53,611 bases of DNA from Treponema sp. (GTDB lineage: Bacteria > Spirochaetota > Spirochaetia > Treponematales > Breznakiellaceae). The notes under the pieces are model-generated. The model was not told the DNA's origin, made no database searches, and saw only the letters and a program-made list of their open reading frames with translations. This document shows, piece after piece, positions 4,296 through 39,083 of this stretch; positions within the stretch are counted from its first letter, which is position 1; every line of letters starts with the position of its first letter. The position numbers and the translations under genes are program-made. The stretch covers positions 1 through 53,611 of the forward strand of contig JAITIX010000012.1 in NCBI GenBank assembly GCA_031279205.1. Reading direction: 5' to 3'.

Positions 4296-5498
4296 ATGCC
4301 GGAGCACCTTACGCCTGAGCAGTCATACGCATTGGTCTCAAAGTATGGCTCGCCCCTCTATGTGTATGACGAAACGCTTATCCGTGAACGTTGCCGAGAA
4401 ATCAGCGGCCTCGTGTCCTTGCCGTTTTTTGCCGCCAACTATTCGGCAAAGGCAAACACAAACATCGAGCTGCTGAAAATCATCCGCAACGAGGGTCTCC
4501 GCGTTGACGCCATGTCGCCCGGAGAGATTCTGGCTGAAGCAGCGGCCGGCTTTCAGCCAGACGAAATCTTTTTCATACCTAACAATGTGTCAATCGAGGA
4601 ACTACGTTTTGCTGCCGAGCGAGGCGTTATGACGAGCCTTGATTCGCTCTCCCAGCTTGAGCAGTACGGTTCAGCCGGACTCCCACGCCGCGTGGCGTTC
4701 CGGCTGAACCCGGGCGTAGGCGCGGGACACAGCGCCAAGGTGGTAACTGGCGGCAAGAGCAAGTTCGGCATAGAAACAAAGGATGTTTGCCGTGTTCAGG
4801 AACTCGCCGCCCGCTACGGTCTCAGCATAGCCGGTATCAATCAGCACATTGGATCGCTCTTTCTGCAAAGCGACGAGTATCTTCAAGCCACCGCTACCCT
4901 GTTTGATATCGCGGCTGGCTTTCCTGAACTCGCGTTTCTTGACCTGGGCGGAGGATTCGGCATTCCCTACCACGGCGAAGCACGACTCGATCTAGCGGAG
5001 CTTGGACAAAAACTTACCCGCATGATACAGAACTTTATCTCAAAGTACGGGCGTGAAATCACCATCATGGTTGAGCCGGGACGCTATATCTGCGCGGAAT
5101 CAGGAACCCTGTTGGGTACGGTTCACAGCGTCAAGGAAACCTACGGCGAAACCTACGTCGGAACAGACATCGGTTTTAACACGCTGATGCGTCCGGTTCT
5201 CTACGACTCTTGGCATGATATTCGGTTCCTTACGGCCAGTACCGAAAGATGCAGGCTCACGATTACCGGCAACATCTGCGAAAGCGGCGACATTCTGGCG
5301 CGGAACCGCGAACTGCCCCTACCTGCACCAGGCGATCTGGTCTGCGTAGCAAATGCCGGCGCTTATGGCTACAGCATGGCGTCCAACTACAACCTGCGGC
5401 TCCGCCCCGCCGAAGTCCTCATCGACCTCAACGGTCAGGATCGCCTCATTCGTCGCCGCGATACCTATCAGGCGCTGGTACAGAATATGCTGGATTAG
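4296..5498 (+). CDS. lysA: Diaminopimelate decarboxylase (PLP, fold type III)
   Basis: This 400-residue protein belongs to the alanine-racemase-fold PLP decarboxylases and most resembles diaminopimelate decarboxylase, which makes L-lysine and CO2 from meso-diaminopimelate as the last step of lysine synthesis. The PLP-binding lysine is Lys52 in the motif NYSAKAN. The glycine-rich phosphate-binding loop is LDLGGGFGIPY (about 225-235), EPGRY follows at about 265, and the substrate-binding cysteine lies in CESGD (about 328-332). AGAYGYSMASNYN near the C terminus is also typical. No strong Shine-Dalgarno precedes the ATG, so translational coupling to the DUF4116 gene is likely. Some relatives act on ornithine or other basic amino acids, so substrate is probable rather than proven. 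Confidence 0.88.
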   Translation: MPEHLTPEQSYALVSKYGSPLYVYDETLIRERCREISGLVSLPFFAANYSAKANTNIELLKIIRNEGLRVDAMSPGEILAEAAAGFQPDEIFFIPNNVSIEELRFAAERGVMTSLDSLSQLEQYGSAGLPRRVAFRLNPGVGAGHSAKVVTGGKSKFGIETKDVCRVQELAARYGLSIAGINQHIGSLFLQSDEYLQATATLFDIAAGFPELAFLDLGGGFGIPYHGEARLDLAELGQKLTRMIQNFISKYGREITIMVEPGRYICAESGTLLGTVHSVKETYGETYVGTDIGFNTLMRPVLYDSWHDIRFLTASTERCRLTITGNICESGDILARNRELPLPAPGDLVCVANAGAYGYSMASNYNLRLRPAEVLIDLNGQDRLIRRRDTYQALVQNMLD

Positions 5499-8611: not shown

Positions 8612-9033
8612 TCACAGCATTTGCGCTGAGTAAATATGCGTCATGGTATATTATTTGTCAATAATAGAAATTCATCTTCCTCCTGTAGTCTCCGACAAAT
8701 CCGGAGCCAGTAAGCTGTTCTACTCCCAGCCACCCGCAGACCTGGCTATCGCGCCATCCAGCAGGTCAATGACACGAACAGTAAACTGTTTATACCCGAC
8801 GCTCACCATGAGATTGGTCGGCGCGGCAATGATTTCATTGACCGCGTGGCTATAGCCCGCCGTCGCGCGCCACGCTCTAATCCACACGTGGCAGCACATC
8901 CCATTAGAGGATGGCATTGTTATGGCGCCACGTACATTCACACAGCGGGCGGCTGATTACGCCCATGAGAAGCGTGAGAACGATTAAGACGAATAGGAGA
9001 AAGCACTATGAATCCAGGTACACCTGTATGACA
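8612..9033. other. Non-coding stretch between the vor operon and the minisatellite
   Basis: No gene can be supported here. A 73-codon frame on the minus strand (8720-8941) has no ribosome binding site and no recognised motif, though its composition (NEIIAAPTNLMVSVGYKQF) is not random-looking and might be a relic. Confidence 0.4.
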
Positions 9034-9403
9034 AATAGATGTACCTGCACGGCGAATAGATACACCTGCACGGCGAATAGATACACCTGCACGGCGAATA
9101 GATATACCTGTAGGGTGAAATAGATACACCTGCACGACGAATAGATGTACCTGCACGACGAATAGATGTACCTGCACGGCGAATAGATACACCTGTACGG
9201 CGAATAGATATACCTGTAGGGTGAAATAGATGTACCTGCACGGCGAATAGATACACCTGTACGGCGAATAGATACACCTGCACGGCGAATAGATATACCT
9301 GTAGGATGAAATAGATACACCTGCACGACGAATAGATGTACCTGCACGACGAATAGATACACCTGTAGGGTGAATAGATACACCTGTAGGGTGAATAGAT
9401 ACA
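9034..9403. repeat. Minisatellite of 21/22-bp units (17 full units plus a partial; a degenerate unit precedes)
   Basis: The unit is AATAGATACACCTGCACGG plus two bases. By hand there are 17 clean units, one degenerate unit before them (9011-9033) and a partial one after (9394-9403). Three units (those beginning 9097 and two later ones, ending TAGGGTGA or TAGGATGA) are 22 bp, so the array has a higher-order pattern of four or five 21-mers closed by a 22-mer. The 21-bp period keeps several frames open, which explains long repetitive frames on both strands (for example 9006-9506 on minus). I do not regard these as genes. Confidence 0.9.
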
Positions 9404-20099: not shown

Positions 20100-20169
20100 C
20101 CGCCGTGTAACAACTCTGTTTGAAGTATCAGACACCCTCCACAAAGCGCGTGTCCCGCACAAGGGTATT

Positions 20170-20296
20170 GGAACCAAACAGTTCCCAATACTGGAACCAA
20201 ACAGTTCCCAATACTGGAACCAAACAGTTCCTAATACTGGAACCAAACAGTTCCTAATACTGGAACCAAACGGTTCCTAATACTGGAACCGGTCAG
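20170..20296. repeat. Tandem array of a 23-bp unit with a GGAAC/GTTCC dyad (5.5 copies)
   Basis: Five full 23-bp units start at 20170, 20193, 20216, 20239 and 20262, with a partial sixth at 20285. Each contains GGAACCAAACAGTTCC, an inverted repeat GGAAC/GTTCC with a 6-base spacer. The changes between copies are C to T at one position and A to G at another. It lies between convergent genes. Confidence 0.9.
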
Positions 20297-32075: not shown

Positions 32076-33206
32076 ATGGAACTACTTGAGCGAAAGACAA
32101 TCTATTGCGATGGGGAATATGTGTCTTTCCCCAACCTCGCGTGGCTGGATAATGACACGCTTGCCTGCTTCTTCAGACACGCCAAAGACCGGCAGAAAGA
32201 CGGCGGCGCGCTTACGCATATCGACCCTACGGCAAAGAACGTGTTCATCGTGTCAAAAGACAGCGGCGCAACTTTCTCGACCAAGCCATATACAGTGCTG
32301 GATGACAACATGAGCGAACAAGACCCCTGTGTAACAGTGCTGGCCAGCGGGCGGACCCTGATGACCTGCTTCCGTTGGCAGTTCGCGCCAAAGGGCGAGG
32401 GCGCCAGAGTCTGGGGTCAGGCGCTGTTCAAGCGCTACGGCAGGAGTCGTGCCAGTACCGGCGATCTTCCCGCCGCTGACACCTTTAATATCGGTTTCAG
32501 TGTCAGCGTATCCGACGACAAGGGCAAAACATGGCGACACCTGCCAGTGATTCAGCCAGAAGGCTATGTGCCGGGTTCAGCAGTGCGCGGCAACATAGTG
32601 GAACTGCCAGACAGCAGATTGCTCCTCCCATTCTACGGGGTAAAGAAAATCGGCTGGCTAGCAAGCTGCGGCCTTATGGAATCACTGGATCAGGGAGAAA
32701 GCTGGCGCTTCCTGAGCGAAACAGCCTTTAACCGTGAAAAAAACTTCCTAGAACCCGCGCTGTTCCGCACCCAAAGCGGACGGCTCATCAGCCTCTTTCG
32801 CACCCAAAGCGATTTCTTAAAACCTGGCGTTAACTTCGAGTCAAGCTACCTCAACCTGCACATTTCAGTTTCCATTGACAATGGCAATACCTTCAGTCCA
32901 GCCCGTGAAATCCCCAGCGTCTTCGGCAGTAACCCTTTCCACGCGCTCCAGCTCCGTAATGGCAAAGTCTTTGTAAGCTACGGTTATCGCCGTACCCCTT
33001 TCGGCATACGCGCCAAGCTCTGCGACACCGAGTTGAGCAACCTTGACAGCGCGCCAGAATTTGTCGTCGTTGCTGACGCCCCCAACAGCGATCTCGGCTA
33101 TACCCACGCGGTTCAACTCAAAGACAACCGTGTTTTGCTCGCCTACTATATCGCCGCCAGCAACGGTACACGCTGCATTGAGGGCGCTTTTCTAAACGTT
33201 GATTAG
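32076..33206 (+). CDS. Sialidase/BNR-repeat family protein
   Basis: The 376-residue protein contains several Asp-box-like motifs (SKDSGATFS near 70, SDDKGKTWRHL near 150, SLDQGESWRF near 210, SIDNGNTFSP near 275), the six-bladed propeller signature of sialidases and related glycosidases. No signal peptide is seen, so it should be cytosolic or act on imported glycans. A catalytic Glu/Tyr/Arg-triad cannot be assigned by eye. AAGGAG at 32064-32069 places the start at 32076 rather than at the earlier frame opening (32055). It converges with the mannonate dehydratase gene and the two stop regions overlap by 15 bases. Confidence 0.8.
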   Translation: MELLERKTIYCDGEYVSFPNLAWLDNDTLACFFRHAKDRQKDGGALTHIDPTAKNVFIVSKDSGATFSTKPYTVLDDNMSEQDPCVTVLASGRTLMTCFRWQFAPKGEGARVWGQALFKRYGRSRASTGDLPAADTFNIGFSVSVSDDKGKTWRHLPVIQPEGYVPGSAVRGNIVELPDSRLLLPFYGVKKIGWLASCGLMESLDQGESWRFLSETAFNREKNFLEPALFRTQSGRLISLFRTQSDFLKPGVNFESSYLNLHISVSIDNGNTFSPAREIPSVFGSNPFHALQLRNGKVFVSYGYRRTPFGIRAKLCDTELSNLDSAPEFVVVADAPNSDLGYTHAVQLKDNRVLLAYYIAASNGTRCIEGAFLNVD

Positions 33207-34274
33207 CTCATTAGCCTGCCACGCAATGGCTTCCCACAGACCGGAGAGATAGGACGCGCCCAGAGCGCGGTCGTAAAGACCATAGCCCGGCATGGAAACC
33301 TCACCCCAAATGGCGCGGCCATGGTCAGGGCGAATGGGGCCGTCAAAGCCAATGTCGTAGAGCGCCTTCATGATTGCGCAAATGTCCAGCGATCCATCAG
33401 CGGAAAGATGAGCGCATTCCTCAAAGTCGCCCGGAGCGTTATGACGCAGGTTCCGCACATGGGCAAAGTGTATCCGGCCCTTGAGCGAGGCGATAATGTC
33501 AAGAATGTCGTTCTTGGGGTTTGTGCCAAGACTGCCTGTACAGAGCGTAACGCCGTTCAGGGGATTATCCACCATCGTGATAACGCGCTGGAGGTCTGCC
33601 TTATTCTTCACGATACGGGGAAGGCCAAAGACCGACCACGCCGGATCATCGGGGTGAATCGCCATCCTGATGCCGTACTTCTCGCAGGTGGGCATGATGC
33701 GTTCAAGGAAATAGCTTAAATTAGCAAAAAGCGCTTCCTCAGTGATGCCTTCATACAAGGTGAAAAGCTCTTTCAGGTGGGCAAGGCGCTCCGGCTCCCA
33801 GCCAGCAAGGGCAAAGCCGTTTGACTTGACGCTCATGGCGTCAAACATGGACTCAGGGTTGATCTGGTCGATGAGCGCCTGATTGTAGCTCATCACAGTA
33901 CTGCCGTCGCTGCGGACTTTGGCAAGGTCAGAGCGGGTCCAGTCAAAGATAATCATGAAGTTGTAACAGACCAGGCGGAAACCCGCCTCACCCAAACGCT
34001 CAAGGGTCGTGATGTAATTATCAATGTACCTGTCCCGCTCAGGCACCCCAACCTTGATGGAATCATGGATATTCACGCTTTCAACGCCCGCAATGGAAAG
34101 TCCAGCCCTTTCCACCTCGTTTTTCATCGCAAGAATCGCGTCCTTTTCCCAGACATCTCCAGGACGAGTTCCGTACAGGGTAGTGATAACCCCGCTTACG
34201 CACGGAATCTGCCGAATCTGGGCTAGAGTAACAGAGTCATAGCCGGTTCCAAACCAGCGCATCGTCATCTGCAT
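33192..34274 (-). CDS. uxuA: Mannonate dehydratase
   Basis: The 360-residue protein matches UxuA, which dehydrates D-mannonate to 2-keto-3-deoxygluconate in glucuronate breakdown. Seen are MRWFGTGYDSVTLAQIRQ at the N terminus, GIRMAIHPDDPAWSVFGLPR (about 200-220), LCTGSLGTNP and HFAHVRNLR with metal-binding Cys/His, and DGPIRPDHGRAIWGE near the end. GAGGAG with a 6-base spacer places the ATG at 34274, 23 codons inside the open frame. Together with the xylanase it points to use of glucuronoxylan. Confidence 0.95.
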   Translation of the reverse strand: MQMTMRWFGTGYDSVTLAQIRQIPCVSGVITTLYGTRPGDVWEKDAILAMKNEVERAGLSIAGVESVNIHDSIKVGVPERDRYIDNYITTLERLGEAGFRLVCYNFMIIFDWTRSDLAKVRSDGSTVMSYNQALIDQINPESMFDAMSVKSNGFALAGWEPERLAHLKELFTLYEGITEEALFANLSYFLERIMPTCEKYGIRMAIHPDDPAWSVFGLPRIVKNKADLQRVITMVDNPLNGVTLCTGSLGTNPKNDILDIIASLKGRIHFAHVRNLRHNAPGDFEECAHLSADGSLDICAIMKALYDIGFDGPIRPDHGRAIWGEVSMPGYGLYDRALGASYLSGLWEAIAWQANELINV

Positions 34275-34753
34275 TCTTTTCTCCTCATTAGCTTTCTCCA
34301 CGCTCACATGGAGCGCGCCCCCTTCTTCACAGGGTTTATACACGCCTACGCTATGATTTCAAAGAGCAATCGTCAATATCCCGCGTCTGCTGCTCAACCT
34401 ATCCCTCGATCGCGCGCAATAGAGTCAATACAGGAGGGAAAAGTCTCCCCCACGCTTCAAAGCCTCCGGCTTTTCCGCTTCCGCCCCGAAGTTATGATAA
34501 AGACATGCGGTTATCTGGGATGGTACAGGTATTCGGAAGAACAGATGCCGGTTGTGTCAGCGTTTTTATTGCCACGGCCATCATCGCGGATAGTATTGAG
34601 GTGAACAGATTTCTGGTATGACCGGTTGTCAGCAGACAAGAGAGCCGGACTGATGAGGACGAGAAAAAATGAGGGAAATTTGAAAAAACCTGCTTGACAT
34701 TTATCATAGACGCAACGCCCCGCTGGTTCGCCCATCCCCAAACCCTTCCTCCC
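34275..34753. other. Gap upstream of uxuA
   Basis: No gene is supported. The stretch contains copy B of the dispersed element (34432-34487). A 76-codon frame at 34511-34741 on minus has no ribosome binding site. TTGACA at 34693-34698 on plus may be a -35 but no matching -10 or gene follows. Confidence 0.4.
34432..34487. repeat. Dispersed intergenic element, copy B
   Basis: AGGAGGGAAAAGTCTCCCCC, then CGCTTCAAAGCCTCCGGCTT and TTCCGCTTCC, matches copy A at 20022-20075 with few changes. Both copies lie in gaps between genes and both contain AAAGCC-TC(T/C)-GGCTTTT. Confidence 0.7.
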
Positions 34754-34963
34754 GATTTCCCAACCGGTCGGCAGAACTTCCCGACACGTAGGCAGAACTT
34801 CCCGACACGTCGGGGGAATGCGCCGACGTGTCAGGAAAACGCGCCTACATGTCGGCAGAACTTCCCGACGTGTCGGGGAAATGCGCCTACATGTAGGGAA
34901 AACGCGCCGACATGTAGGGAAAACGCGCCGACATGTCGGGAAAATGCGCCTACGTGTCGGGTG
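34754..34963. repeat. Tandem array of ten 21-bp units with a palindromic core
   Basis: Ten units of exactly 21 bp start at 34754, 34775, 34796, 34817, 34838, 34859, 34880, 34901, 34922 and 34943. Each has a 12-base core of the type CCGACATGTCGG or CCTACATGTAGG (both perfect palindromes) or a hybrid of the two, joined by AACTT or AACGCG/AATGCG. One core per 21 bp puts every dyad on the same helix face. The frame from 34694 to 35122 that runs through it is a by-product. Confidence 0.9.
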
Positions 34964-34988
34964 TCAGACACTTCAGCGGGTAGCCGCA

Positions 34989-35080
34989 GTACGTACGAAC
35001 GCCCGACCGCGGCACGTGCGAATGCATTGCCGCAGCACTTACGAACGCTCATTTGCAGCACGTGCGAACGCCCGACCGCA
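34989..35080. repeat. Second tandem array, four 23-bp units
   Basis: Units of 23 bp start at 34989, 35012, 35035 and 35058. Two contain GCACGTGCGAA, which includes the palindrome GCACGTGC; the others have GTACGTACGAA (palindrome GTACGTAC) and GCACTTACGAA. It follows the first array after 25 bases that carry GTGTCAGACAC (34961-34971). Confidence 0.8.
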
Positions 35081-35118
35081 ATGTTGTCGTGGCTTCTCCT
35101 TCTTAACATGGGGTTTGT

Positions 35119-35556
35119 TTAGCAGTTCTCTTGAACAATGCGCTCATTTGCCTGCGCCTGTAATGAATCGGGCGGCAGTTCCATAATCTCAATGCTGTTA
35201 CCATCTGGATCGTGAGTCCAGAACTGGATACAGCGGGAATACCCGCGCTTGAGTTCAGTGTCAATGGGCGCGCCCCGGCTGCGAATCTCCTCAAGAAAGG
35301 CTGCCGCGTTATCGACCTCGAAGCATATATGGGCGTGGCCGATGGTTTTGTTCGAGCGCGGCGCTTCCTCGACGCCGTCTGGAAAGAGTTCGATAAACTG
35401 ACTGGGCGCGACGTACATATAAATACACCCTAGCTTATTACCCGTGGGATTTTGCATACGAAACGCTTCTTTCATGCCTAAAGTTTCCCTATAAAAACGG
35501 ACGCTGGCTTCAATATCCCGCGTCCGAATTGCGGTGTGAGCAATTCTTGTAATCAT
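35119..35556 (-). CDS. VOC (glyoxalase/bleomycin-resistance fold) protein
   Basis: The 145-residue protein has the vicinal-oxygen-chelate fold: HTAIRTRDIEASVRFYRETLG at the N terminus, ELFPDG, then GHAHICFEVDN and HDPDGNSIEIMELPP. His7, the His of HICFEV and the Glu of IEIMEL are candidates for the metal site. Lactoylglutathione-lyase activity is possible but glutathione use in this organism is unproven. GGAGGC precedes the ATG. Confidence 0.88.
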   Translation of the reverse strand: MITRIAHTAIRTRDIEASVRFYRETLGMKEAFRMQNPTGNKLGCIYMYVAPSQFIELFPDGVEEAPRSNKTIGHAHICFEVDNAAAFLEEIRSRGAPIDTELKRGYSRCIQFWTHDPDGNSIEIMELPPDSLQAQANERIVQENC

Positions 35557-38893: not shown

Positions 38894-39037
38894 ATTATAC
38901 GCTCCTAAGAATGTATCCACAGATTACACGTATCTTCATAGATGTGAAAGTTCTTTCTCTGCCTCACGTCTCTCAGATGAAAGATATTCTCACCGGTGCG
39001 CGTGTGAGCTTCTCCCACCTATGCGGTGTGTCTCCCT

Positions 39038-39083
39038 CATACTATGTGGTGGAGCGTCTCCATACTATGTGGTGGAGCGTCTC
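39038..39083. repeat. Exact 23-bp tandem duplication
   Basis: CATACTATGTGGTGGAGCG plus four bases occurs twice back to back (39038-39060, 39061-39083). A diverged third copy may precede it (39011-39035). Confidence 0.75.

Follow-up and report, generated by a model that had tools for sequence, protein, structure and literature searches.

We found that arrays of 21-bp period lie directly upstream of the promoters of a paralogous gene family, and that a tandem array of ten palindromic sites in the window (the whole stretch of 53,611 nucleotides analysed here) is related to them. The reading that we prefer, at a probability of roughly one half, is that the window array is an orphan, a solo copy from a two-part system of array and gene, the protein of which probably binds its own array next to the promoter. 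Membership of the window array in this gene-linked family was overlooked in the original prediction. A common bacterial 'junk' repeat is tied here to a specific unnamed gene family, of which gut spirochaetes have as many as 44 copies per genome, and the purpose of such repeats becomes testable.

The window array and its surroundings

The array (34760–34960, unstranded) has the consensus CCKACRTGTMGG followed by a 9-bp spacer. Its dyads start at 34760, 34781 and so on to 34949, at a step of exactly 21 bp, which bears out the ten evenly spaced positions originally described. The 12-base dyads are confirmed as well: ten 12-bp positions are present, and units 7 (CCTACATGTAGG, 34886–34897) and 9 (CCGACATGTCGG, 34928–34939, the commonest dyad genome-wide) are perfect unstranded palindromes with six of six pairs; the other units have four or five of the six pairs and the terminal unit 1 (CCAACCGGTCGG, 34760–34771, unstranded) is degenerate. 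CCAACCGGTCGG is also unit 1 of the sister arrays L095 and L097, and the counterpart first units are TCAACCGGTCGG in L101 and CCAACCAGTCGG in L098. The arm types CCGAC and CCTAC and their mates are indeed shuffled between units; the centre, earlier given as an unchanging ACATGT/ACGTGT, reads AT, GT or AC. Two types of semi-conserved 9-bp spacer occur, CAGAACTTC and G(G/A)(G/A)AA(Y)GCG (GAAAAYGCG). The dyad pattern has 17 matches against 1.2 expected, a number equalled in none of 100 shuffles, and identity at lag 21 is 0.76 in the array against at most 0.40 anywhere in 30 simulated windows. Thus, the ten-unit array is not due to chance.

The array lies in an intergenic stretch (34290–35113, unstranded) flanked by a mannonate dehydratase gene, uxuA (33192–34343, minus strand), and a glyoxalase-family gene (35119–35556, minus strand). 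As originally stated, no replication or partition gene is adjacent. The reading that the sites are iterons or a partition site, which the regular two-turn spacing of the dyads favours, is almost certainly wrong: no rep or par gene adjoins, there are many copies within one genome, and the same dyad array recurs at no fewer than 15 unlinked places. We therefore rejected iterons, as UxuA and the glyoxalase flank the array in place of a replication initiator gene.

In a relative (L014, genome G004), this intergenic stretch is missing, and the uxuA and glyoxalase genes are 11 bp apart. We dropped the idea that L014 is a clean ancestral empty site, because L013, L015 and L071 carry other long intergenic DNA there. 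The array is preceded by a left flank module (34695–34759, plus strand, ending in CGCCCCGCTGGTTCGCCCATCCCCAAACCCTTCCTCCCGATTTC), which is similar at the sister arrays L095–L098 and L101, and is directly followed by GTGTCAGACAC at 34961. A recurrent module (AAGCCTCCGGCTTTTCCGCT..., CTCTGCGGGGCTCCGCCCCGCAACGCCCCGC) found left of several arrays (window 34440–34480, L095, L096, L097 and L101) resembles a separate dispersed repeat. Adjacent to the array is one of a different period class, with GCACGTGCG-type units repeated every 23 bp (34984–35080, unstranded). Two more arrays in the window repeat every 23 bp (20169–20290 and 39004–39083), as does one at the orthologous uxuA site in L071 (9343–9515). 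Some of the window's 23-bp arrays contain dyads, and they are possibly a second class. The window also holds a second solo 21-bp array (9019–9403, minus strand), the unit of which matches the array of a family gene (G000:C150, L156).

The window array lies inside an ORF of 142 amino acids, which exists because 21 is divisible by three. This ORF, together with a strong predicted folding (z −9.1), could point to a role at the RNA level, in which the array is transcribed and its RNA forms hairpins or is translated into heptapeptide repeats. We consider such a role highly improbable, as the position of many gene-linked arrays, ahead of the predicted −35 element, puts them outside that transcript. 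The right arm of one unit and the left arm of the next show no pairing-type covariation, on which ground RNA hairpins were rejected, and the coding idea was rejected in view of stops in every frame across the array set.

Sister arrays and solo copies

The genome that contains the window (G000) is a MAG assembly of 2.54 Mb in 150 contigs, 81% complete. The best matches of its UxuA are in termite-gut Treponema MAGs, the termite origin being read from the MAG names and the group. The genome-wide dyad search proposed with the original prediction showed that the dyad recurs, and does so as 21-bp arrays: an exact search of this assembly for two dyads with 9 bp between them gave 40 forward matches, and the control gave none. 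Dyad arrays at 21-bp spacing, mostly of 8–10 units, are found on at least 15 contigs. Among these sister arrays the dyad is conserved while the 9-bp spacers differ. A comparison of 115 units yielded 24 different dyads against 82 spacers, with an information content of 1.1–2.0 bits at dyad positions against 0.1–0.2 in mid-spacer, and no arm covariation within the dyad was seen in it. The pattern CCKACATGTMGG occurs 60 times in this genome and 1–13 times in its four congeners, while none of 15 further relatives has it more than once; its reversed control has 0–4 matches. Several MAG contigs begin or end in arrays (L107, L108 and G000 contigs C97, C121, C50 and C43). Since arrays break the assembly at contig ends, array counts are minima.

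Many array types also occur without a gene. When 15 gene-linked arrays were used as a concatenated query, the unit types of C116, C42, C58, C105, C55, C71 and C150 were found as solo copies elsewhere in the genome, in numbers that are again minima, with 40 of the 88 candidates scored. Solo copies of the C139 (MNRD) type were found by the dyad-pattern search. In all, at least eight array types exist as solo copies too, those of the window's two 21-bp arrays among them. No remnant of the family protein was found near solo arrays of the window's type, and we rejected the idea that these are decayed gene cassettes. No strong promoter was found to abut them either, the best score being 9.2 at L105; no regulon is therefore visible, and a promoter-linked regulon was rejected. 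The array region had no match in phages.

Two solo arrays lie in insertions. L100 is within an insert of ~775 bp that two congeners lack, flanked by a direct repeat of ~18 bp present as a single copy at the empty sites. L096 is within an insert of ~600 bp with an imperfect duplication of ~45 bp. In the L100 insert (4567–5341), apparent broken coding pieces lie on either side of the solo array.

These insertions, together with the absence of the window array's surrounding DNA from L014, the species-specific array sets and the many solo copies with no gene remnant nearby, agree with selfish repeats that spread through the family protein or other machinery, the gene being a helper and the window array a non-autonomous copy, much as in REP-RAYT systems. 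We regard this explanation as possible but doubtful. The flanking duplications are unequal in length, the inserts contain other sequence too, a catalytic domain is not recognised in the protein, and the placement of arrays upstream only, at the −35 element, would be left unexplained.

Arrays are linked to one gene family

Flank alignment showed that four arrays (L093 and L103 in G000, L109 in G001 and L110 in G004) end at or near the promoter of the same gene type. At these closest gene-linked copies the promoter is TTTACA-17-TATCAT (TATTAT in L110), followed by a gene whose product starts with MNRD. Window-type dyad copies linked to the gene are thus present in three species, just upstream of the promoter.

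We then gathered family members by protein similarity alone and examined 450 bp on each side, with the 99% level of shuffles as cut-off; given this way of finding them, the association test is not circular for the other members. A 21-bp-periodic stretch was found upstream of 54 of the 55 members (49 above 0.6 identity) and downstream of 4 of 58. Other genes at the same loci passed the 21-bp-period test in 39 of 239 cases, a background raised by the choice of loci for their arrays or family genes. In a replication set, drawn mostly from other, more distant genomes with some members re-fetched, such a stretch was found upstream of 31 of 34 members and downstream of 1 of 36. When lags of 12–47 were tried, the best was 21 or 42 in 51 of the 56 arrays. 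Dyad symmetry reached p<0.05 in 27 of these 56, so that about half lack a significant dyad in the test used. In 23 of 55 the promoter has statistical support. Outliers aside, these promoters tend to start close to where the array stops, and array ends cluster near their −35 element.

Neutral minisatellites generated by replication slippage in intergenic DNA would be tandem as well, and other tandem periods (23 and 35 bp) do occur in the window. However, the contrast between upstream and downstream makes this origin quite improbable, and the strict 21-bp period, a unit common to unlinked loci and a dyad much more conserved than the spacer also argue against it.

The family protein

The family proteins have ~215–225 residues (214 in the MNRD product), with an N-terminal helical bundle and a C-terminal FN3 domain. 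A confident AlphaFold2 model (pLDDT 94.9, pTM 0.63) has helices at residues 10–31, 35–56 and 62–88, followed by a beta sandwich, and residues 115–214 match FN3 domains at Z ~11. Modelled alone (pLDDT 92), the N-domain resembles generic helical bundles only, with matches of Z up to 9.9, below the meaningful level for bundles; absences from these lists exclude nothing. Basic residues are conserved at positions 68, 72 and 80 in helix 3 (84–89%), and the charge is otherwise near neutral. Sequence searches of Pfam, NCBIfam, PHROGs and the PDB gave no match for the MNRD product. Taken as a whole, the family corresponds to none of those in Pfam, NCBIfam, PHROGs or PADLOC, with only stray single-member matches to PADLOC and NCBIfam at E 0.0035–0.0095. 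No catalytic domain was recognised, and none of 57 members matched the Pfam family Y1_Tnp.

The family is paralogous, with 29 matches in G003, 19 in G000, 16 in G004 and 14 in G001. In a Spirochaetota sample, 3 of 296 genomes besides our own have it (four counting our own). Of 40 genomes selected by way of uxuA, most of them from gut spirochaetes, 25 have the family, at 1–44 matches each. A sample of Bacillota, the phylum to which the Ruminococcaceae genome G348 belongs, gave 0 of 299, an empty result that carries little weight. Similar unnamed proteins may exist in Bacteroidota. No match to a family protein was found in phages, plasmids or viral contigs.

Units change faster than the proteins

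Most of the dozens of sister genes are preceded by an array whose sequence is particular to them. Across all pairs, protein identity and unit identity are correlated (Mantel r 0.29, p 0.0002), but r is 0.04 below 60% protein identity; the overall correlation is thus due to close pairs alone. Even close pairs may differ: the units are unrelated in L145/L194, L145/L146, L178/L193 and L093/L161 despite proteins 78–81% identical. In the MSGKPY group (L145, L146, L181, L185 and L194), the best-scoring promoter stands at a fixed distance, with the −35 element at 60 and the −10 element at 37 bp before the start (some scores are individually not significant), while the arrays differ. The proteins themselves are under purifying selection, as indicated by dN/dS of 0.09–0.28 in 15 pairs.

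This rapid unit turnover, set against a conserved protein, is the main difficulty for the reading that the protein binds its own array. With wholly different units in front of some proteins 78–81% identical, a conserved sequence-specific binder looks odd. That reading is further weakened by the failure to recognise a known DNA-binding fold in a near-neutral protein made of a generic helical bundle and FN3 (although basic residues are conserved in helix 3), by solo arrays that adjoin no strong promoter, and by arms that do not covary within the dyad and the half or so of arrays that lack a significant dyad. The turnover would be compatible with a binder that evolves very readily, or with arrays that spread and take each other's place.

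A model for the array-gene system

In the two-part system that we favour, gene-linked arrays are placed directly upstream of the promoter of the bundle-FN3 gene. The family protein, as a dimer or higher oligomer, would bind its own dyads along one face of the helix, and the array-bound protein would control the promoter of its own gene. Solo copies such as the window array may have spread to other intergenic sites, where they would be extra binding or titration sites at most. The one-face cooperative array of the original prediction is partly supported: it fits the equal two-turn spacing and is strengthened by more than 50 other gene-linked 21-bp arrays, its protein binding being putative.

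More tentatively, each paralog might recognise its own 21-bp array, with pairs that diversify fast and orphan arrays that spread over the chromosome. If so, the system would be a bacterial equivalent of those protein-satellite pairs that turn over fast. The protein-array pairs, some of them with unrelated arrays at 78–81% protein identity, form a natural series for reading any recognition code.

Comparison with known systems

We found no description of the array-gene system in the literature searched, which covered few subscription journals, and no family that corresponds to it; the system appears to be new, although a prior description is possible.

Plasmid iterons are direct repeats with a spacing of about two helical turns, close to a promoter that Rep autoregulates. 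The repeats here share this spacing, at exactly 21 bp, but they come without Rep, in many chromosomal copies and with many paralogs that have different units. The operator arrays of autoregulators are also similar in that the array is directly upstream of the promoter of its own gene, which is true of the gene-linked arrays and not of the window copy. However, such operators have one to three sites against 8–15 or more here, and the present system differs in its lack of a recognised DNA-binding fold, its rapid unit turnover and its solo copies away from promoters. A transposable element or MITE would be expected to leave target-site duplications of constant length; the duplications observed here are ~18 bp at L100 and ~45 bp, imperfect, at L096.

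REP/REPIN sequences with their RAYT (TnpA-REP) genes are dispersed intergenic palindromic repeats with copies adjoining the cognate gene (PMC3733652, PMC3116915, PMC8266576). No 21-bp dyad array was found at the Y1 loci fetched from our own genome. Palindromes resembling GTGTCTGACAC surround Y1 transposase genes at L271, L273 and L275, perhaps as a separate REP-like family; the window array, too, has GTGTCAGACAC just behind it. Membership in REP/RAYT was rejected, as the cognate gene is not a Y1 (HUH) transposase. The arrays described here share with REP/RAYT a dispersed palindromic repeat that is also linked to a cognate gene; they differ from it in a family protein without a Y1/HUH domain and in 21-bp tandem arrays that stand upstream only.
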